Shown here piece by piece: positions 7,644 to 54,600 of a stretch of 64,000 bases of DNA; position 1 is the first letter of the stretch, and each line of letters starts with the position of its first letter. Under the pieces are notes generated by a model. The model had not been told where the DNA came from, ran no database searches, and worked only from the letters and a program-made list of their open reading frames with translations. The translations under genes and the position numbers were made by a program. The stretch is from Apostichopus japonicus (lineage: Eukaryota; Echinodermata; Holothuroidea; Aspidochirotida; Stichopodidae): the NCBI RefSeq assembly GCF_037975245.1, contig NC_092568.1, forward strand, positions 41,467,631 to 41,531,630, in the 5' to 3' direction.

Positions 7644-10600
7644 CTATAGATTAAAGACACAGGTAATTAAACCTACACAAACTTTCAAGAAATACGGATA
7701 AATGTTAACTTTTATCAATGAAATGAAGTTTCAAAAAACGTAATATAACAGCCAGTGTTCCTACCCACTCAGAACCAGCAGAGGAAAAATCTCTAACAGT
7801 TCATGACAGGATTGATCTCCAAAACAAACAATACCTCCCGGCCTAAGTATGCAAACCTAAAGCTGAAAATTGATGCATTGAGTGTTTGAGGTTAGCTGCC
7901 AACAAGAACTTGGCTTGTATACTTAAGTTTGTTAGCTCTTACAGTTTATTCAAGCAGTCATCAAAAAATGAATATGCTTTCAACTAAATGAATGCTTATA
8001 GACCAGACGAACCTTCTTACACTACAACAACAATAACTATAACATTTATAGCAGATAATATCCTAACTAACAAAGTGTCAAGACCTCCCAAGTAGTGGTT
8101 TGTTTATCCTCAGAACATGTTCTTTTTACAGCATATGAGGAATACTTAAGGCATTGTTGTATCATTTACATTTTTTGGCCCAAATTGCAGATGGGATTGT
8201 AAATCACATAGTTGTGTGCTAGGCACCCTAACTATGCATCATAAGTTTGGAGAGAGTGAAATTTATTATCCTTTTTTCATTAATATTTGCTCTACCCACT
8301 AAACACGAGGGCTTGGAAGTAGCATGAGGGATTCCATGATCTTTTAATCTGATGGAATGGCTACATCTGGGAGGATGGATCTTACCTTCTTCATCATCCT
8401 TAAAGTCCTCTTCATCTTCACTCGAGTCACTGACATGAACACTGATTGCATTGCTGGCTGACTCTGACCACTCAAAGTACAAGCCAAACCCTATGTCATA
8501 GTAGTCTGTGGCAAACTCCCAGAAGATGTATTTACCCTCGTTATGCGTGGGGACTCGAACTGTTACCGTCTCTCCATGTCCAACTTTAATCACTGATTCA
8601 GAGTCTTTAGCCAACTGGGATTTAAACTTGGTAATATCGGCATGAGTCCAACTAGATGCTTTGGCAATATCTGGAAGGTTCTCATCTGAAAAATTATAAA
8701 AATAAATTAACAAATTTGACCTCATCTGGAAGCAGGAAACATGCCTGAGAGAAACCTGCCTAGGAAGATCCGAGCAAAGCATCTGCAGGAACCCAGAGAG
8801 ATTTACGATGGAGGGGTGGGGGGGGGTGGGAGAGGGTTTGGATGAGGAGCAGCAGTGGTGCTGAAACTGTCACCCTGTTTCTGTCAACAAAATAATTCAG
8901 TGTAACAATTAATAACTACATAGTTAGACATCTTAAATGTATGAGCAGATCTTTTCTTACAACAATAACTGGCTATTAGTGGACAAAGCGTGGCCATATG
9001 TTTTAATTACTTCTGCTAATCAGCCAACCTGTACCCTAGTCAGCTAAAGTGATTGCAGGCTTCCTATCATTGACTTTAATGTTTTATGAACATCAAGGTT
9101 AGATTTGTAATACCTGTCTTTGGTTTAAAGCTTGAATATCCTTACTTAACATTAACCTGATGAAGATCCATGATGTAACATGTACCTACCATTGCCATTG
9201 ACTGCACCATCTGGTCCTTGAGTGGGGCCATTGTGTAAGGGATTGCTGGTTCTTGTAATACCTGTCTTTGGTTTAAAGCTTGAATATCCTTACTTAACAT
9301 TAACATTACCCTGATGAGGATCCATGATGTAACATGTACTTACCATTGCCATTGACTGCACCATCTGGTCCTTGAGTCGGGCCATTGTGTAAGGGATTGC
9401 TGGTTCCATTGACAGGGAGATCCCCTAATTGAATGTTTTGAAAGTTCTGTGCCAATCCATCTACACCATCAGCCACTCCTGTATCAACAACAAAAATATC
9501 CCAAAATAGAGTTAAAGACTGTATGGATCATACTATACAAATTTCATGACCTTTACAGATCAAGATGTATTCCCAACAAGTTTGAAACAGAAAGAAACCC
9601 CCAAAACATACTCGATGGGGAGTGGGTGGTGTATTTTATAGGCACTGATCACCCAATCCTTGACCGAAAGGTGTTCATCTGCCATCTGGATGCCCGAACT
9701 GTTCTGAATCTCTGGATGCTTTAAGTTAAGTTTATGTATGTGTGCACACCTCCCACCATACCGCTTAGGTGTGCTTTTGGGGTGAGGGGGAAAGCGACCC
9801 CCCACCCGTCAGTAGTTCCTAAGCTGCTGTAAACCACTGATTGGCCCATGTGGATTTCTCTTATAGTGCCTAATAGCCTATATTAGCTCTTGACTTATGT
9901 CAATCTTCATGGGCTCTTGTTCACTCTAGCTTTTATAAAAAAACTACTAAAAAAAAAAAACTAACTTAACATTTCTCCTTTTCCGTTTGCATGATATTAA
10001 TATGGAAAGGCCTCTGTGTGACAACATTTTCAGAATCAGTTTTTAATGAGATGATATTGACCTATATTTGACCTTATTATGTATACGGTGCCTTACTTGT
10101 ATGTTATTTACAACTGCAAGTTGGTAAGAAGCAAAAATAGCTACTTCAACATAGCACAATGCATCGTATCAAAACCTACCAAGTAGTTTTCAAAATATAA
10201 CTGCAATTGACCAGCCTATGACATCCATCTTTAGCATTAACATTAGACTTCTAGAAATAAAAGCTTTTTAACTGAAACGTTGTCAAGCAGACACCTTTTC
10301 ATGTCACTGTTAATAATCGCCAAATGTAAATCTGGTATTTCAAGGCTTTTGACATTTCTTCATCATTTGAAGAGAAAGCTAACTAGCCAAGCTTATAAAC
10401 TGTTCTAAAAGTTCTGGGACTTGAGTACTTAAATGTAGGAGAGATAAAACCACAATCAATGCTAGAATGAATCTGCTTTAAGAATAAAATGCCACCAGCA
10501 AAATGAAATTAAAATTTGAATTTTAGTTTAATGAATCCACCCATTCTGCATACTAACCTTTCGGATTTTTTTATATATAATTTTGTGTATAGTTCCATGG

Positions 10601-14862: not shown

Positions 14863-17800
14863 CAAGTTGAACGCATAGGTTCCTTGCTTTGCAAAAAGCA
14901 AGGAACCAAAAATGTATCATGTTCACAAATCTGTGTCTTGCATAGGCCAGTCTGCAGCAACAGTTATTGAATGTGTAGAGTTGTTGTTTGGATTAACGCA
15001 TATATATACTTGCGCATTTGAAATAAATATTGAAGACATCACCAGATTTTCCAGTGGCAGAAAATAAATTGAATGAAATCCAAGGAACAAATGTTTTAAG
15101 TCACATCTTTAACAGACATAATTATCATCCAGGAGTCGTCCTACCTGTTCTGGATTATTAGGATATTGCTGAGCTGCTAAAGGTTGAACCTGTGGTAACA
15201 AATGTTGATAGATTGCTTCTTTGTATTGTAACCTGGAACAGAGAAAATATCACAAACATGCTGTTAATCCAATCAGCAAAACAAAACACAAAACCAAAAC
15301 CAACAACAACACAATACAAAGATACTTATTACTACATATATTTAAACGATAACAATAACTTCATTAATGAGCTTACTTTTGTTTTTTTGTTTTCATTTCT
15401 AACCAACTTTCAGTCATTTGTAAATGAGGAACATACGCTTGGACAAGTTTAACGACTTACCCTCAATTTAAGAAAGTTTAAATACAACAAAAAAATACAT
15501 CTAGAAATCAGGTATACAGAAATAATTCCTGAAACAGTCTCTGTACTACTGTAACTACAGCTTACATTACCTTACAGGAGAACATATTCACTCCTTGCTA
15601 CAGTAAACTCTCCTGCCCCGGTAACCCTTGTACTTTATATGTAATCAGACATATTTTTGAATAGTTGAAACTTTCTGACACCTTTCCATTTCAGTCTCCC
15701 TTTTAATGTTTACACAGCTATCTCAAAATATTATCTAACATTATGTTCACCAAACAAGATTTGAATTGATTTTTCAAGAAAACACAAATCTGGCTGCATC
15801 CTAAATTATGTTGACCTTGCAGGAGATGCAGATCTAGTGTATACATACTAAAACCAGAATCTACAAATCAAAACTGTAGCAGTACCGGTTTACTATTCCT
15901 CTTAGGAAATACAAAAAAAAAAAAAAAATAAAACATGGGACACACCTAACCAATACACTAGACTTGTATAAATCTTGAAGACTCAATATTAGCATAATAT
16001 AGCCTGACAGATCGATAACTCTCTAGGATCTACTATACAGATCAACCTGTATAATTCATGGGAGATGCCCTCCAGGAGGACTACTACAGTAATAAGCCAC
16101 AACTATTATGACATCACAATCATAATATTACAGCTAGAAACACTTAAGACTATCTACAGATTATCTGCATTTAAAAATAAACATGGAGCAGGGAAAATGA
16201 TAATGTCAAACTGGAGACATCTTTGACAAGAGCATCATGAATGCAATACACTGACGCTTCTATGTGTAAAGATATGGAGAAGGGTCGCTGATGTACCTTT
16301 GCTGCTCCTCTGTTCGCCTCTTCTCCTCCTCTAACCTCCTTGCTTCTTCTTCTTTTCTCTGTCTCTCTAATTCTTCTGCTTCTCTTCTCAATCTCTCTTC
16401 TTCTTCTCTTCTGTAAAGAAGAACCACAGAGGATGAATACTATTCATGTATAGTAAACCTTCCTACGGCTAGAATACCTTAACTGTAGGCTAGCATTGGT
16501 ATGACTTACATTGTATCCAAGTGTACGATTTTGTGCTCTTTTGGGTAATTTTCCGGCATATTGTTCATGTACATTTCCCATTACGGAGGAAGAACCACAG
16601 AGGGTGAATACTATTCATGTACAGTAAACCTTCCTGTGGCAAGAATACTTTAACTGTAGGCTAGCATTGGTATGACTTACATTGTATCCAAGTGTACGAT
16701 TTTGTGCTCTTTTGGGTAATTTTCCGGCATATTGTTCATGTACATTTCCCATTACGGAGGAAGAACCACAGAGGGTGAATACTATTCATGTACAGTAAAC
16801 CTTCCTGTGGCAAGAATACTTTAACTGTAGGCTAGCATTGGTATGACTTACATTATATCTAAGTGTAACATTTTGTGCTCCATTTGGGTAATTATCCGGC
16901 TTATTAGTCAAGTAAAATTCCCCCTTAAGGCAGCTCATTAGTTTCTGTGGTTACGTTTAATTTCAATAATGAAGGAAAAGGCACTTTACTGGTTGACAAA
17001 ATTCATCAGAATCATGGATTATATATATGCACTAATTAACATTAGGAATGTCACTTTGAGAGCGCTTTAGCTTAATTGCAATATTATTCTGAGCAACGAT
17101 ACTCATCAGGTTTGGTAAAACCACAGTAAATTGGTAACCAAATTTATGCAAACAGTTGCTTTAATATTGCTTGAACAAGGACAGCTCTTGGATTGTAACT
17201 TAATATGATATTTTCAGTAATAACATAATTTGATCAGCTAAATATTCACAAATATTCTGATCTTTATTAATTGGAGTACTTATGTCTGCATACTGTAGAT
17301 ACATCCCCCCCCCCCCCTTGCTGATAGTATAGTATTGGCAGTACTCTGTAACAGCAGGGCTAACACTAAAACTCTTAACACTATTCTCCTCTGGATCATT
17401 CCTTGTCGTTTCACTAGCTCGTTATGAATACCTCTATTAACTAACCTTGGTTTCATGGTGTCACTAGCTTGGTATGAATACGTCTGTTAACTAACCTTGG
17501 TTTCGTCATTTCACTAGCTTGTTATGAACACCTCTGTTAACTAACCTTGGTTTCATCGTTTCACTAGCTTGTTATGAATACCTCTGTTAACTAACCTTGG
17601 TATCATCGTTTCACTAGCTTGTTATGAATACCTCTGTTAACTAACCTTGATATCATCGTTTCACTAGCTTGTTATGAATACCTCTGTTAACTAACCTTGG
17701 TTTCAACTGTTTCTTTGTTGTTGGAAGAATTTCTCTTAACTTTCTTCCTATAAGCAGCTGTGTAGGACTGACACTTACGTCAGGAATTTGAGTATTTCTG

Positions 17801-44840: not shown

Positions 44841-45611
44841 ATGAAAACTTGTTCAATAGATTCCGTGGCTCTAACTTTGCTAATGCAATATAGTGTCCCT
44901 AATTTATATAGGAATAAAATAAAGTGAATCCAACGCACTGGGGATTCAGCATGAGACAGTACTACAGTAGCTAATGTCAGTGCATAACTAGTTCTATAGA
45001 AAAATCAACACCTCCCTGCAACAGTGTGTGCTGATGTGCATGTGAGGGATGGGGAGGCGGCTGAGGGTCATGACATACGACTATTTCTAATAACCAGGTA
45101 TCAATCCACGCACCCTTTGGCTAAGTTTTCACATGTTAATTCACAAATCTGACGCTATTGAACTTCCTGCAGTTTAAACTAAATTCGGATAACAATCTAT
45201 GTTAAGTTTCTATAAATGTTTACTATATTAAGCAATTTAAAAAAAGTAAGAAAGTTTATACAGACTTGAAAACTAAAATTGAGGAAAATACAAACAAAAT
45301 ATTTGCAGTAAAATGAAAATTGCAGTAAAATGAAAACTGTAATAATATGTCTTCCCCAAAGTTCAATAGTTTAGATATCTAAAATGGAAACCAGCTGACC
45401 TCACTGATATTCCTTGTTCCAATTTCCCACAAGCGGGCGCAAGTAGTGTGTAAACTTGTAGTATGCACCTGTCCCATCAATTGAACTGATAAACAATACC
45501 TTGCATTTATTAATCTTCTCTAGAAGCAAAGCCTTATAAGGGATAGTACGGAGAGGTGGCTGAGAGACCCAATATCTGCCAGTTTTGCTGTTACGTAAAG
45601 GCTGCTATAAC

Positions 45612-46669
45612 TGTTACCTGCTCTTGTATTGTGCAATGTAGCATGGTAAAACTCTTATCTGCTCTTGTATTGCAATGTGGCATGGTGAAACTGTTATCTG
45701 CTCTTGTATTGCAGTATGGCATGGTGAAACTGTTATCTGCTCTTGTATTGCAGTATGGCATGGTGAAACTGTTATCTGCTCTTGTATTGCAGTATGGCAT
45801 GGTGAAACTGTTATCTGCTCTTGTATTGCAGTATGGCATGGTGAAACTGTTATCTGCTCTTGTATTGCAGTATGGCATGGTGAAACTGTTATCTGCTCTT
45901 GTATTGCAGTATGGCATGGTGAAACTGTTATCTGCTCTTGTATTGCAGTATGGCATGGTGAAACTGTTATCTGCTCTTGTATTGCAGTATGGCATGGTGA
46001 AACTGTTATCTGCTCTTGTATTGCAGTATGGCATGGTGAAACTGTTATCTGCTCTTGTATTGCAGTATGGCATGGTGAAACTGTTATCTGCTCTTGTATT
46101 GCAGTGTGGCATGGTAACACTCTTATCTGCTCTTGTATTGCAGTGTGGCATGGTGAAACTCTTTATCTGCTCTTGTATTGCAGTGTGGCATGGTAAAAAT
46201 CTTATCTGCTCTTGTATTGCAGTGTGGCATGGTAAAACACTTATCTGCTCTTGAATTACAGTGTGATATGGTGAAACTGTTATCTGCTCTTGTATTGCAG
46301 TGTGGCATGATAAAAATCTTATCTGCTCTTGTATTGCAGTGTGGCATGATAAAAATCTTATCTGCTCTTGTATTGCAGTGTGGCATGGTAAAACTCTTAT
46401 CTGCTCTTGAATTACAGTGTGATATGGTGAAACTGTTATCTGCTCTTGTATTGCAGTGTGGCATGATAAAAATCTTATCTGCTCTTTTATTGCAGTGTGG
46501 CATGGTAAAACTCTTTTCTTGTATTGCAGTGTGGCATGGTAAAACTCTTTTCTTGTATTGCAGTGTGGCATGGTAAAACTCTTTTCTTGTATTGCAGTGT
46601 GGCATGGTAAAACTCTTCTCTTTTATTGCAGTGTGGCATGGTAAAACTCTTATCTGCTATTGTATTGAC
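45612..46669 (+). repeat. 39-bp minisatellite, ~27 copies (last ones 34 bp)
   Basis: Each unit is close to CTGTTATCTGCTCTTGTATT, GCAGTATGGCATGGTGAAA. The first two-thirds is nearly homogeneous; the right third varies (TGTGGCATGATAAAA, TGTGATATGG), and the last units lose 5 bp. Because 39 is a multiple of three and most frames lack a stop, frames of 130-326 codons open on both strands. They have no non-repetitive extension and are not considered genes. Confidence 0.97.
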
Positions 46670-48527: not shown

Positions 48528-48653
48528 TTACTCCATCTTCCACTGCAAGACGGACATGTCCCGGCCCCCGGTGGAGATCAGAGTGTGATCGTCAGGAAAG
48601 AAATCCACACATGTCACGTGACTGCTGTGTCCTGGATAAGCATTGCACTCCGT
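48528..48653 (-). CDS. EML: EML exon O (last WD blade and stop)
   Basis: 41 codons plus TAA (48530-48528): TECNAYPGHSSHVTCVDFFP then DDHTLISTGGRDMSVLQWKM and E. GHSSHVT and LISTGG-DMS--QW close the propeller as in other EMLs. A minus-strand AATAAA near 48009-48014 is a possible poly(A) signal. Confidence 0.95.
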   Translation of the reverse strand, partial: TECNAYPGHSSHVTCVDFFPDDHTLISTGGRDMSVLQWKME

Positions 48654-51600
48654 CTAAATGGAAGAAAACAGAACTATGCGTGAGAACAGGCACACATCAC
48701 ACACACAAAACAACAATATTCATATCGGTAGACAACATCTAACATTGATCCTGACAAAGAAAAGTAAAATATCCCGGGATTCAGCAGAATTGCAAATAGT
48801 TGTCACCTTGGAAACCATAAGGGTGACAACTGTGTCACTTGATACAATATTGGTGCCCCTGCCATCATCAGTCAAATGTTTGTAGATTGCTATTTGAAGG
48901 CACATCTACAGGATGTGCAGTGTGTAATAGGATGTGCAATGGGATGTGCAATGTGCAATATATGACTAGATGCGTCAATGGCTAACTCTTTGGGTTCTTC
49001 TACATTCCAGTCTGCGATAGTGGTGACTACATCCAAATTGATTTCATTTTACATCGACTTGTGATCATAAACAAATATCCGTTGTTTTGACTGGGATGTT
49101 GTAAGTTTACACCTACCTTGGGATGCGACGCTGGACTCTTAAAAAGTTTCACTTTTCCAAAGTCATCCCCGGTGGCAATGATAGATCCATCATGTGATCT
49201 TGCAACTGTGTTGACATCGGTACCATCACTACCCTCGGGCCAGATTCCTGTCAAGAGCAGAAGAAACCAAACATTTTAAAGTAGAGTTCACTGATCTGGC
49301 TGACTGAGAATGATACTCAACCATTAATGCAGAAGCAAACACAACCACCACTCTAGACACACATCATGACAGCAATACATAACTCCTCCAAAAAGAAAGA
49401 AACCACAGGTGTTTTACTGATGACATATTTAAACTTGCTCAAGTCTACAGACTTTGATATCTTGATACAACAAGACTTTTCTATGCTGTGTTTTGGATTT
49501 ATCCATCACAAGAGTCTTTATCTCACAGGACAAAGATGATGGTTGCTCTTGCTTCTACTTTCACAGATGTATAATTTTGCTATAAATCAGAGTGACTCTT
49601 ACGACCACTGATAGGTCCAAGCCCTGATAAACAAAACATCAGTCATGTCATCTTAATGATGCATGCACCCACTTATGGAAATTAATAATTATTTATTAAG
49701 CTTCATGTGATATGTACCTGATCCATGTAAAAGTAAGAGAATTATTAAAGTGAAAGGGAGTGGAGAGTTGCAGGCAACTATTCCTTGCCACCTTTGATAG
49801 GTTTACTTTTCATTAAAAACTCATCTGAATTTCATCTGAGTATCATCTTTGAAATTATATTCAGTCTCTTACATATGACAAGTTATATGCTACCTCGTTG
49901 TCTCTTACCTATGACAGGGTATCCTAGCACACAGGTATGTGTTACCTCACTGTCTCTTACCTATGACAGGGTATCTTAGCACACACATATATATTACCTC
50001 ACTGTTTCTTACCTATGACAGGGTATCCTAGCACACAGGTATGTGTTACCTCACTGTCTCTTACCTATGACAGGGTATCCTAGCACACAGGTATATGTTA
50101 CCTCACTGTCTCTTACATATGACAGGGTATCCTAGCACACATATATATTACCTCACTGTCTCTTACCTATGACAGGGTATACTAGCACACAGGTATATGT
50201 TATCTCACTGTCTCTTACCTATGACTGGGTATCCTAGCACACATATATATTACCTCACTGTCTCTTACCTATGACCGGGTATCCTAGCACACATATATAT
50301 TACCTCACTGTCTCTTACCTATGACAACGTATACTAGCACACAGGTATATGTTATCTCACTGTCTCTTACCTATGACTGGGTATCCTAGCACACATATAT
50401 ATTACCTCACTGTCTCTTACCTATGACAACGTATACTAGCACACAGGTATATGTTATCTAACTGTCTCTTACCTATGACTGGGTATCCTAGCACACATAC
50501 ATATTACCTCACTGTCTCTTACCTATGACTGGGTATCCTAGCACACACATATATATTACCTCACTGCCTCTTACCTATGACTGGGTATCCTAGCACACAT
50601 ATATATTACCTCACTGTCTCTTACCTATGACAGGGTATCCTAGCACACAGGTATATGTTACCTCACTGTCTCTTACCTATGACTGGGTATCCTAGCACAC
50701 ACATATATATTACCTCACTGTCTCTTACCTATGACTGGGTATCCTAGCACACAGGTATATGTTACCATACTGTCTCTTACCTATGACAGGGTATACTAGC
50801 ACACAGGTATATGTTACCTCACTGTCTCTTACCTATGACAGGGTATACTAGCACACAGGTATATGTTACCTCACTGTCTCTTACCTATGACTGGGTATCC
50901 TAGCACACACATATATATTACCTCACTGTCTCTTACCTATGACTGGGTATCCTAGCACACATATATATTACCTCACTGTCTCTTACCTATGACAGGGTAT
51001 CTTAGCACACACATATATATTACCTCACTGTCTCTTACCTATGACTGGGTATCCTAGCACACATATATATTACCTCACTGTCTCTTACCTATGACAGGGT
51101 ATACTAGCACACAGGTATATGTTATCTCACTGTCTCTTACCTATGACTGGGTATCCTAGCACACATATATATTACCTCACTGTCTCTTACCTATGACAGG
51201 GTATACTAGCACACAGGTATATGTTACCTCACTGTCTCTTACCTATGACTAGGTATCTTAGCACACATATATATTACCTCACTGTCTCTTACCTATTACA
51301 GGGTATACTAGCACACAGGTATATGTTACCTCACTGTCTCTTACCTATGACAGGGTATACTAGCACACAGGTATATGTTACCTCACTGTCTCTTACCTAT
51401 GACTGGGTATCCTAGCACACATATATATTACCTCACTGTCTCTTACCTATGACAGGGTATACTAGCACACACATATATATATTACCTCACTGTCTCTTAC
51501 CTATGACAGGGTATCTTAGCACACACATATATATTACCTCACTGTCTCTTACCTATGACAGGGTATACTAGCACACAGGTATATGTTACCTCACTGTCTC

Positions 51601-54600
51601 TTACCTATGACTGGGTATCCTAGCACACACATATATATTACCTCACTGTCTCTTACCTATGACAGGGTATCCTAGCACACAGGTCTATGTTACCTCACTG
51701 TGTCTTACCTATGACTGGGTATCCTAGCACACATATATATTACCTCACTGTCTCTTACCTATGACAGGGTATCCTAGCACACAAGTATAAGTCTGCCACT
51801 CTGTATCTCTCAAATCTTTGCCGTTGACATTTTGTTTACAGGTCTCTGTATCCCAGAAGAGCATTTCATAATCGCCTGAGTTTGATTGGAGTAGTTTGCC
51901 GTCAGCAGACCAATCGATGTGGGTGACAAAACTGGAATGACCCTGAAATAGTTTGACAAACAAAATAAAGTGAAAGCTGCCATTGGATCTATATGATAAT
52001 GGTATGTAATATATATCATTGTGTAAAGATTAAGCAAATTATAATTTGAGCAATTAAAATATGCTGATGTTCACATGTAATAAAAAGTTTTACTTTAGAG
52101 TGTTTGCAACCATCTACAAATTGCTGCTCTATACCCTTGCCTTGATATATCAGTCTTACATGCAAAACTTTCTCTTTCAAAAGTAAAATACAGACACTTA
52201 CAGAACATTTTCCAACTTTAGTGTATTTCCTTCCTTCTTCTTCAACAGCATAAATGTAAATGAAGTTATCGTGAGACGCAACTGCAAGATGGCTGCCATC
52301 TAAGAACGAGAAAGAGATTCATATTAAACTTTACATTGGTAATCTTCAATTTATGTGGCTAGCAGACAACAGCTGTCAGTTAATAAGAAGAAGTAATTCT
52401 GCTGATGACAATTAACTTATACACCATATTGAATAGACTCAAGGTTCCAAATAGTACATCTGATCTTTGTCTGCTGTTAGTTAAATATTTATTCTTGAAC
52501 ATCTCTGGCAGCAGACAGTACTCATCAAACAAGGGTATATATGGAAATTTTACTCATTGTATTTCACTGGGAGCAACCGAGACTACAAGCACAATGAAAG
52601 TGTCAGGGACTGTTTGCAAAACTAGGTAAAAGTCACTGTAGAAGGCCTGGACTACTGTATAGGATCTAATATGGAGATGGTTCACTATGCCAACATCTGT
52701 GGTCATCTCTGGTGACAACATTCAGTCTGGTACATCTAATTTATTAACCTTTACATTCATCATACTTGATGTTCATATTTCCTTTGACTGTTTATAAATG
52801 TTAGTAATAGCATATAAAGTTGGCATTGAATTCTGTGACATGATTTTTCTTCCCAGCAAAGTTGAAAGAAACAACAGAAACAAAACCAAAGGTAACGGAA
52901 TTGATTTCTGGAAGCATTGGACAAAATGACCGCCCCCAGAAAGAAATGCCTCTGAGCTTATATCTGTTGCAAACATTTGGGGGGGAGGGAGGGGCAGAGG
53001 GAGGGGGAGGGAGAGGGAGAGGAGGAGATGAGGAGCGGAAGGAGAGGGGGCAGTATTAAGAGAAGGCATTCCAATTGTAATGGTCTGTTTATCTCTTGTT
53101 TACCTGGAGAGTATCGAATGATATCATGCTGTTCATTGCCATCTGTGTGGACTGTCACTAAGTCGTGAGTATCTGCATCTAGGACCATCCATCTACCAGT
53201 CTGTAGACCGACAGCGATGAAATTACCAGAAGGATGGAACCCTACGGACTGGATAGGATCCTGAAAGGCAACATGACAGAAACATCTTAAGAAAGGAGCC
53301 GAGTGGAAACCATGGGGAGGGTTCAAATAGCGATATTTAATATGGAATGATGAATAACTCTGACGATCTTGTCTAGATGACGACGTGAACATCAGATATA
53401 ACCAAAGGGTACTACTGATCACTAAGAATTGGTAGGAGGAGGGGGGGGGGGTAACCTTATTAGAATTGAAATTTAAAGATCCAAGAGTAATAGATCTTCT
53501 ACTGAGATAAATCAAATGCCAGTGATCATGAGTAAAGGTAGAAAGTATGGGTGGGGAGAGTGAGGGAGAGGTACATACAATCATGTGAACAAACGTAAAG
53601 CATACTAAACAAAACATGGAAGTATGGGTGAGGGAGAGGTACATACAATCATGTGAAGAAATGTAAAGCATACTGATAAAAACATGTTCACTTAATTATT
53701 ATCATTAACCAACAAACAAAACTATAAGATTAAACCTTTCCTTTGGAAAGCTTAGGTTTGAGACCGACAATGATACACTGTGACTGACCTCCAGTGTTTT
53801 TGACCAGAGTGGCTTGTGAGACTCCATGTCCCAGACAACCAGTCGTTTGTCGTGAGCACCAGTAGCAAACATTCCTAGGTTAGGGTTGATACCTAGACCC
53901 CACAGTTCATCAGTATGACCCTGAAAGACAATAACAGAAATCGGTGAATGTGTGTTACTATCGATAAACAGAGAGTCTTGTTAAAGCTTGGACCAGAACT
54001 TGAACTTGACAGTGCTTACAGGACAGCGGCAATATTAACTACCGTATCTATCTAATCTGCCTCCCTGATAGTAATATGACATACTGGGCCAATATACAAT
54101 ATTATTGGCTATTACATGCAATCAACAACTCATATACATGAATACTTCAAACAAGAAGATTACTGACATAAAGTTATTTATAGTATGGTAGGATACAGGA
54201 CTAGGCTCAAGCAGCAACAAATAGAAAAAGGTTTGCATAACTTGTTGTTTTCATATTTAAGACTTTGTCAAATAACTTATAAACAAAGTACAAGTGCATC
54301 ATCTTCCTGGATTAGTATCAATAGAAAGAGAGAGTGTTAACTGTTCCCAGAGTAAGTGCTTGTTTATATAAAAGCATAACAACTACTGAACACATTATTA
54401 GTGACTAGTAGCAATATAAGAAGAAAAAAACAATTGAAACTGCATGACATCAAGAAACTACTACTTTTTATAAGATATGGATATAGCAAATAGTACAGCA
54501 AATGGTAAATAAATATTAACATGAAAAAAGAACATAATATTACTGCCTTACTTGCACAACTGTTTCAAACTCGCCACCAATCTCTCCTTTAAGAATAGCA

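Follow-up and report, generated by a model that had tools for sequence, protein, structure and literature searches.

A mirage minisatellite repeats the 5' splice site of an EML exon in the sea cucumber Apostichopus japonicus and is probably tolerated

One intron of an EML gene in the sea cucumber Apostichopus japonicus carries, directly behind the true 5' splice site of exon M, 37 further copies of that site in a head-to-tail array of minisatellite-size units, each of which holds an exon end, a splice site and the adjoining intron. The array belongs to a named phenomenon, the mirage, which recurs at other donors of the same genome and of which the earlier note on this DNA, made from the sequence alone, was unaware. 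We consider it probable, at somewhat over three chances in four, that the EML array is a mirage minisatellite which expanded near-neutrally across the exon–intron boundary and is tolerated since only the acceptor of exon M is competent. The window analysed is a stretch of 64,000 nucleotides (NCBI RefSeq assembly GCF_037975245.1, contig NC_092568.1, positions 41,467,631 to 41,531,630 of the forward strand); positions count from its first letter, and the features are collected in Table 1. In motifs, a slash marks the exon–intron junction or its copy.

Table 1. Features of the EML locus and of other exon-edge arrays, with the basis of each assignment
Feature	Position or locus	Strand	Description	Basis
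EML exon M	51759..51942	(-)	184 bases; last bases CCT GTC ATA G, phase 1	Pfam, structure match, coordinates/frame
True donor of exon M, GTAAGA	51753..51758	(-)		site scan, donor model
Intron M–N	49248..51758	(-)	about 3/4 array; rest, ~0.6 kb (~620 bp), array-free and bearing the acceptor	
Array of 50–54-bp units	49884..51789 (TRF span)	(-)	begins within exon M	TRF
37 decoy donors, GTAAGA	49867..51708	(-)	first bases 51708, 51656 ... 49908, 49872	
EML exon N	49117..49247	(-)	131 bases	Pfam, coordinates/frame, acceptor model
Last EML exon	48528..48653	(-)	TECNAYPGHSSHVT...QWKME, then stop	partly by eye
Second exon-end duplication	9105..9406	(-)	154 bp x 2	TRF, donor model
Donor array, L011	PF00118 locus		46 bp x 11.8	TRF
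Donor array, L015	PF00118 locus		31 bp x 38.7	TRF
Donor array, L061	PF00063 locus		53 bp x 17.4	TRF

By its sequence matches, exon M is a genuine EML exon. It covers positions 122–181 of the Pfam profile Beta-prop_EML_2 (E 1e-23), exon N covers positions 181–226 of the same profile, and a structure–sequence comparison gave a single-stretch match to the EML1 structure 4ci8 (E 3e-23), ranked below three repetitive WD40 chains, each of them without any single stretch under the cut-off. The acceptor of exon N scores 11.2 bits, at the 71st percentile of 69 acceptors from the same genome. In translation, retention of the intron, or the use of any decoy, would lead to ...GYPVIGKRQ and then an in-frame TGA, just as the earlier note had read it; its estimate that the last two exons, 85 residues, would be lost agrees with 44 codons from exon N (split codon included) and 41 from the last exon, the latter figure being counted by eye.

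A register scan of the minus strand found GTAAGA in register 38 times. The true donor, its G at 51758, comes first, and the 37 decoys behind it follow at intervals of 50, 52 or 54 bp, with a final gap of 36; since gaps of double length are absent, no unit has lost its GTAAGA. TRF gave a period of 52 with 37.1 copies and 90% matches, as well as periods of 102 and 154, which represent a minisatellite-like higher order. The unit comprises about 25 coding bases (TGTGTGCTAGGATACCCTGTCATAG), GTAAGA and 19–23 intron bases, so that the anatomy already proposed for it, exon M end plus donor plus intron bases, is upheld by both TRF and the register scan. Among 36 decoys compared, the last, partial one being left out, the coding bases are exact in 5 and carry one to three differences in 31, and the units bear private as well as shared variants. 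TAG/GTAAGA stands at 36 sites, the true donor among them, and TAT/GTAAGA at two decoys. The origin of the unit in EML exon M, likewise claimed before, holds: the Pfam match identifies the exon, and a genome search for the unit found no copy elsewhere, with all 26 matches, query included, falling in the EML locus (counts that are lower bounds, as very common words were skipped). These matches thus include no dispersed copies of the kind that mark an introner or a transposon-borne intron. A search for EML paralogs returned the query and two weak matches, L083 and L084, limited to the first 30–32 residues; as both are seemingly split there, they would not contain the exon M–N junction, and TRF found no array at their exon edges.

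Donor strength was scored with a model built on 67 donors, and acceptor strength with one built on 69 acceptors, all sampled from this genome. Over nine bases, of which the first three belong to the exon, the true donor of exon M reaches 8.95 bits (57th percentile of the 67 donors), and the scoring of every unit, which the earlier note had proposed, gave the same value for 35 of the 37 decoys, identical to the true donor over all nine bases, and 4.78 bits for the other two; its count of some 37 near-identical donors is borne out. The splice signals are thus kept in the copies. In addition, the units hold a second donor-like site, GAG/GTAATA or GAG/GTAACA, of 6.8–7.0 bits in at least 31 copies. 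Acceptors inside the array are weak, the best of its 235 AGs scoring 4.79 bits (13th percentile of 69) and most lying at or below the 6th percentile; a competent acceptor before a decoy donor, as in a decoy or poison exon, was accordingly not found in the array.

The array would have started with a tandem duplication straddling the end of exon M together with its 5' splice site, for which TTGTGTG in the exon and the ATATGTGTG end of the unit may have supplied the short homology. Slippage, we infer, or unequal exchange would then have generated the 37 extra copies within the intron, at little selective cost. As the array would grow on its intron side, the exon end and donor from which it began would remain first and intact. 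Exon definition would pair the acceptor of exon M with the first donor, since a competent acceptor lies upstream of exon M alone, and the decoys, 50 to 1,900 bp downstream and without a good acceptor, would stay in the intron. In the sections of PMC3087553 and PMC3902484 used here, amphioxus mirages are likewise reported to leave normal splicing intact. Among the roles that the earlier note had offered, the best fit is tolerance, with the first donor paired to the acceptor of its own exon, given the weak in-array acceptors and the amphioxus analogy; nothing found speaks for soaking up U1 or tuning EML isoforms, and the decoy core shows no clear excess of conservation. In mammalian model transcripts with duplicated donors, Eperon and colleagues reportedly saw that the intron-proximal of two equally strong sites can win, a preference which would predict the use of late decoys, against the first-donor model.

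Mirages, that is, tandem repeats across exon–intron boundaries, are described for amphioxus Adh3, the globin genes BflGb6 and BflGb9, TnC and PGBD5 in the same parts of PMC3087553 and PMC3902484, which cite Canestro et al. 2002 for them. As in EML, the amphioxus unit holds part of an exon, a splice site and part of an intron, many copies keep AG/GT, and copies are homogenised within an array. The host differs, being an echinoderm rather than a cephalochordate; the EML array has 38 sites in the single haplotype analysed as against six and three repeat units in two BflGb6 haplotypes, and all arrays of the sea cucumber sample sit at donors, while amphioxus offers examples at acceptors as well (BflGb6). 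A cephalochordate source for the genome, which the mirage papers had brought to mind, is at odds with its mitochondrial contig, whose long open frames under code 9 and echinoid/holothuroid gene order point to an echinoderm; a GFP family search gave 0 matches, an uninformative result as its control found nothing either. Human internal tandem repeats at exon–intron boundaries in segmental duplications, averaging four units of 30 bp in the excerpts of PMC2812944 drawn on here, are also boundary minisatellites that can alter splicing; many of the intron changes in them accompany supported alternative transcripts. With decoy splice sites and decoy exons the EML array shares strong intronic splice sites off the exon edge. 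Decoy exons bear an acceptor as well as a donor, whereas the array is without competent acceptors.

Further exon ends are duplicated in the window and elsewhere in the genome. The 154-bp duplication in the window repeats an inferred exon's end together with its donor, ATG/GTAAGT at 9343 (10.4 bits), and makes a second donor, ATG/GTAGGT (7.3 bits); the duplicated exon gave no profile match, and the exon that follows encodes a GOLD_2 domain. A candidate third exon-edge array lies at 17406–17713 (GAAACCAAG/GTTAGT, 50 bp x 6.1), near which two short stretches scanned showed no exon homology. In the genome sample, arrays enclose 3 of 67 donors but 0 of 69 acceptors; two further donor-copying duplications stand outside the 67-donor sample. 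At L011 nearly all decoys match the true donor in strength (11.4 bits), and at L061 they equal it (7.0 bits). At L015 the positions that copy the true donor read GTAGTA, below 2 bits as against 11.2 for the true GTAAGT, and the unit there carries a separate donor-like site, CAG/GTCACT (5.9 bits, 25 copies). The breadth is new: similar arrays occur at several donors of one genome, so far on the donor side only. The sampled arrays extend to donors yet stay about 95 bp clear of acceptors, which suggests an asymmetry whereby arrays may run across donors and avoid the ~100 bases before acceptors. The sole hint of an acceptor-side case in this genome is a weak duplication at L078 (68% identity, E 1e-4), missed by TRF and uncounted.

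It is unlikely that the EML array is functional in the sense of recruiting many U1 snRNPs at the intron start, slowing or tuning M–N splicing or shielding the transcript from premature poly(A) sites, with copy number setting the share of EML that lacks the 85 residues. The equal scores of 35 decoys, the additional donor-like site and the strong decoys of L011 would suit such a role, as would the GTAAGA core, which shows no change in 210 cells of the 35 full decoys. However, 5 of 52 six-base windows are equally clean, the core among them, so that in invariance the core does not clearly stand out from other parts of the unit, and at L015 decoy strength has not been kept. In the same invariance test 11 of 53 windows at L061 are as clean as the donor core; at L011 two arrays entered the test with 5 units apiece, too few to be informative. 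A looser count, with varying columns at 0 of 6 in the core versus 17 of 50 overall, comes to about 0.07 when worked out by hand. On a window test that is weak, the sequence of the decoy donors thus gives selection no support, and the unchanged core does tell against a tolerated mirage. A donor-presenting hairpin, with CUGUC and GACAG of the exon copy as the two arms of the stem and the donor in the loop, was rejected: the stem survives in 16 of the 35 decoys and is disrupted in 19, and three of three folded stretches did no better than shuffles (z 0.36, 0.60, 0.25). The wider idea that donor-anchored minisatellites occur genome-wide in sea cucumbers, some of them, such as EML with 35 equal decoys, being copy-number-tunable U1 platforms that set the loss of the terminal propeller part, a rapidly mutating and possibly somatically variable isoform switch, is quite improbable.

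Very unlikely, too, is stepwise (recursive) splicing, in which AG/GTAAGA would be a zero-length exon, or the inclusion of in-frame microexons, in which AG, 15 nt and GTAAGA would add GYPVI. An AG does stand immediately before GTAAGA in 35 of 37 decoys, and another lies 15 bases 5' of the donor in 32 of 36 units, with a stop-free frame of five residues, GYPVI (21), VYPVI (9) or VYVVI (2); a 15-base microexon is therefore formally possible, which tells against the tolerated mirage. A strong polypyrimidine tract is absent, however, and the array AGs, none of them above the 13th percentile of the 69 acceptors, include no strong acceptor joined to a donor of the kind that marks recursive splice sites. 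Introns of 50–54 bp, as the units would form, are unusually short. An intron born young from the duplication, as in the Rogers/Hellsten AGGT model, rather than an old intron expanded, has in its favour that the unit contains AG/GT, that tandem duplication of AGGT is cited as a source of introns (ATP2A1, potato RdRp and a 24-bp fission yeast case in the portion of PMC4974935 used) and that a section of PMC3087553 proposes this route for mirages; in the model and in EML alike, tandem AG/GT copies could serve as both splice sites. It is nonetheless very improbable: the EML duplication, unlike the model, crosses an existing donor and enlarges an intron, some 620 bp of intron with a strong acceptor lie outside the array, and exon N is not copied from exon M. 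Assemblies tend to fail at tandem arrays, yet a repeat collapsed or inflated in assembly is hardly credible here, as the units differ by private and shared variants and the 1.9 kb array is far shorter than the mean HiFi read of 14.7 kb for the A. japonicus assembly, seemingly the one analysed (PMC10344927).

The EML intron is a natural experiment on the spliceosome's choice between equivalent 5' splice sites, which is usually studied with two-site constructs: it has 38 donors in register, 36 of which agree over all nine bases, and by score a competent acceptor lies upstream of the first alone. Because the same genome supplies cases of equal decoys, at 11.4 bits in L011 and 7.0 bits in L061, as well as degraded ones in L015, the donor-choice rule could be worked out from existing RNA data; PMC10344927 names a transcriptome run of A. 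japonicus. The EML array also carries the mirage phenomenon from lancelets to echinoderms.

The EML gene lies on the minus strand of the window, and its exon M and the following exon N were recognized by profile matches to Pfam Beta-prop_EML_2 (positions 122–181 and 181–226, respectively). The open frame around exon M also matches the EML1 structure 4ci8 (E 3e-23), above which rank three repetitive WD40 chains, none with a single stretch past the cut-off. Exon M ends in ATAG followed by GTAAGA, and the earlier note's account of about 37 decoy donors beyond it is real and correctly described: 37 further in-register GTAAGA follow, the most distal at 49872, at spacings of 50, 52 or 54 bp, with a final gap of 36 bp and no double-length gaps. 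TRF reports a period of 52 and 37.1 copies, with higher-order periods of 102 and 154. Of the 36 decoys compared, 5 repeat the 25 coding bases preceding the donor without change, and the other 31 differ from them at one to three positions. At 1.9 kb, the array is unlikely to be an assembly artefact; the HiFi assembly of Apostichopus japonicus comprises 671.6 Mb in 34 scaffolds with a mean read of 14.7 kb (PMC10344927). On conceptual translation, intron retention or decoy use reads GYPVIGKRQ-stop, and exon N (44 codons, including a split one) and the last exon (41, by eye) together hold 85 residues, so that the in-frame stop and the loss of 85 residues previously proposed both hold.

Splice-site strength was scored with models built from 67 donors and 69 acceptors at 74 exon loci of this genome, namely the best 30 of 57 PF00118 matches, 22 of 126 PF00225 and 22 of 70 PF00063. 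Left out as donors were L008, L023, L026, L027, L033, L041 and the low-scoring L043, and as acceptors L008, L023, L026, L027 and the low-scoring L054. Several sampled sites share a gene, and the sample is biased to good sites, since these were picked by a generic consensus score close to each profile match. The donor of exon M and 35 of its decoys each score 8.95 bits, at the 57th percentile of the 67-donor model, and two decoys 4.78. A second, weaker donor-like sequence, GAG/GTAATA or GAG/GTAACA (6.8–7.0 bits), recurs in the units in at least 31 copies. None of the 235 AGs within the array exceeds 4.79 bits, which corresponds to the 13th percentile of the 69 real acceptors, whereas the exon N acceptor scores 11.2 bits. 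These scores make the EML array donor-rich and acceptor-poor. Under exon definition, a donor is paired with the acceptor across an exon of ordinary length, and across such an exon the true donor alone would have a partner.

The decoys might be maintained for a function or merely tolerated. The decoy core shows no change in 210 cells of 35 full units, but five of the 52 six-base windows of the unit are equally clean, the core among them. Decoys mostly equal the true donor in the 46-bp array of L011 (11.4 bits) and in L061 (7.0 bits), and the 121-bp array of the L011 gene holds AAG/GTATCA (4.7 bits) both at the exon's own donor place and in the copies. L015 decoys, in turn, are degraded to GTAGTA (<2 bits) versus a true GTAAGT of 11.2 bits, and its unit also holds a donor-like CAG/GTCACT (5.9 bits) in 25 copies. 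A hairpin around the EML donor can be drawn; it is not special on folding, and its stem is kept in only 16 of 35 decoys. Across the EML core-versus-window test, the other arrays and the hairpin there was no sign of selection on decoys as such, which favors tolerance over function, without proof.

Exon-edge arrays and other repeats in the window and the genome
Feature	Location	Strand	Description
EML exon M	window 51942-51759	minus	exon whose end and donor the EML array copies
Two-copy mirage	window 9105-9406	minus	154 bp x 2; putative exon end and donor copied (GTAAGT, then GTAGGT)
Candidate exon-edge array	window 17406-17713	minus	50 bp x 6.1; GAAACCAAG/GTTAGT
Array downstream of EML stop	window 45609-46667	plus	39 bp x 27.6; unit acceptor-like (CTCTTGTATTGCAG); minus strand open for 343 codons
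Arrays at two consecutive exon ends	L011 396-1253, 1717-2257		121 bp x 7 and 46 bp x 12
Direct repeat across myosin exon acceptor	L078 1370-1530		weak, 68%
COX1 pieces	contig C29 14745-31219		31-kb contig; several pieces in different segments

The exon of the two-copy mirage sits upstream of a GOLD_2-encoding exon; it gave no profile match, and its identification draws on frame, splice signals and phase. No exon homology was found in two short stretches scanned near the 50-bp candidate array. Among the sampled loci, a donor lies inside an array in 3 of 67 (L011, L015, L061; exact 95% interval 0.9–12.5%) and an acceptor in 0 of 69. Arrays of period at least 15 already account for 10.3% of the sequence that flanks the 74 loci (inter-locus overlaps counted twice), and donors are therefore not enriched over random placement. 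Outside this tally stand the 121-bp array, located one exon earlier in the L011 gene, whose copies span that exon's end and donor place, and L029, a third exon of that gene, with its tail duplicated without the donor. The gene encodes a CCT-type chaperonin (PF00118), which we take to be CCT8. The COX1 pieces on C29 may be nuclear copies or come from mitochondrial DNA that was misassembled. The mitochondrial genome itself is contig C35 (16,099 bp), with long open frames under the echinoderm code and tRNA and protein genes arranged as in sea urchins and sea cucumbers.

Unlike donor frequency, the asymmetry between donors and acceptors stands out. Of the 67 donor flanks, 4, 6 and 8 lie within arrays at intronic distances of 10, 60 and 100 bases, against 0, 0 and 1 of the 69 acceptor flanks (Fisher p = 0.056, 0.013 and 0.016, a guide only, as these are 3 of 15 tabulated distances picked post hoc and same-gene exons are counted separately). 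The closest array of period at least 25 ends 95 bp before an acceptor (69 acceptors). The L078 repeat, the sole hint of acceptor-side duplication, is below the reach of TRF and absent from the 0/69 count.

Minisatellites straddling an exon-intron boundary, termed mirages in amphioxus, are described in two reports, for Adh3 and the globins BflGb6 and BflGb9, where they are said to leave regular splicing undisturbed, though AG/GT is kept in many copies (PMC3087553), and for TnC and PGBD5 (PMC3902484). The EML array, known here from the DNA of one haplotype, shares their sequence-level features, and by these it is a new member of an already known phenomenon. Among the matches listed in open-licence literature, searched partly with echinoderm terms, no mirage-type report in an echinoderm was found.

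The anatomy shows a duplication straddling the donor as the initial step. Expansion would have followed via slippage or unequal exchange, as higher-order periods and shared variants suggest, while the first donor would stay intact and pair with the exon M acceptor, consistent with the acceptor scores and the amphioxus reports. Selection may remove acceptor-side arrays, which would damage the branch point and tract or let false AGs come first; the 0/69 acceptors in arrays point this way. The main tension with this first-donor model is that, of two equal donors, the downstream one is reported to win in earlier work; were that so in EML, mRNAs would be spoiled. The value of the EML array lies in its extreme copy number with donor strength almost unchanged, in extending mirages to a new phylum, and in the evidence of more donor-side arrays in the same genome.
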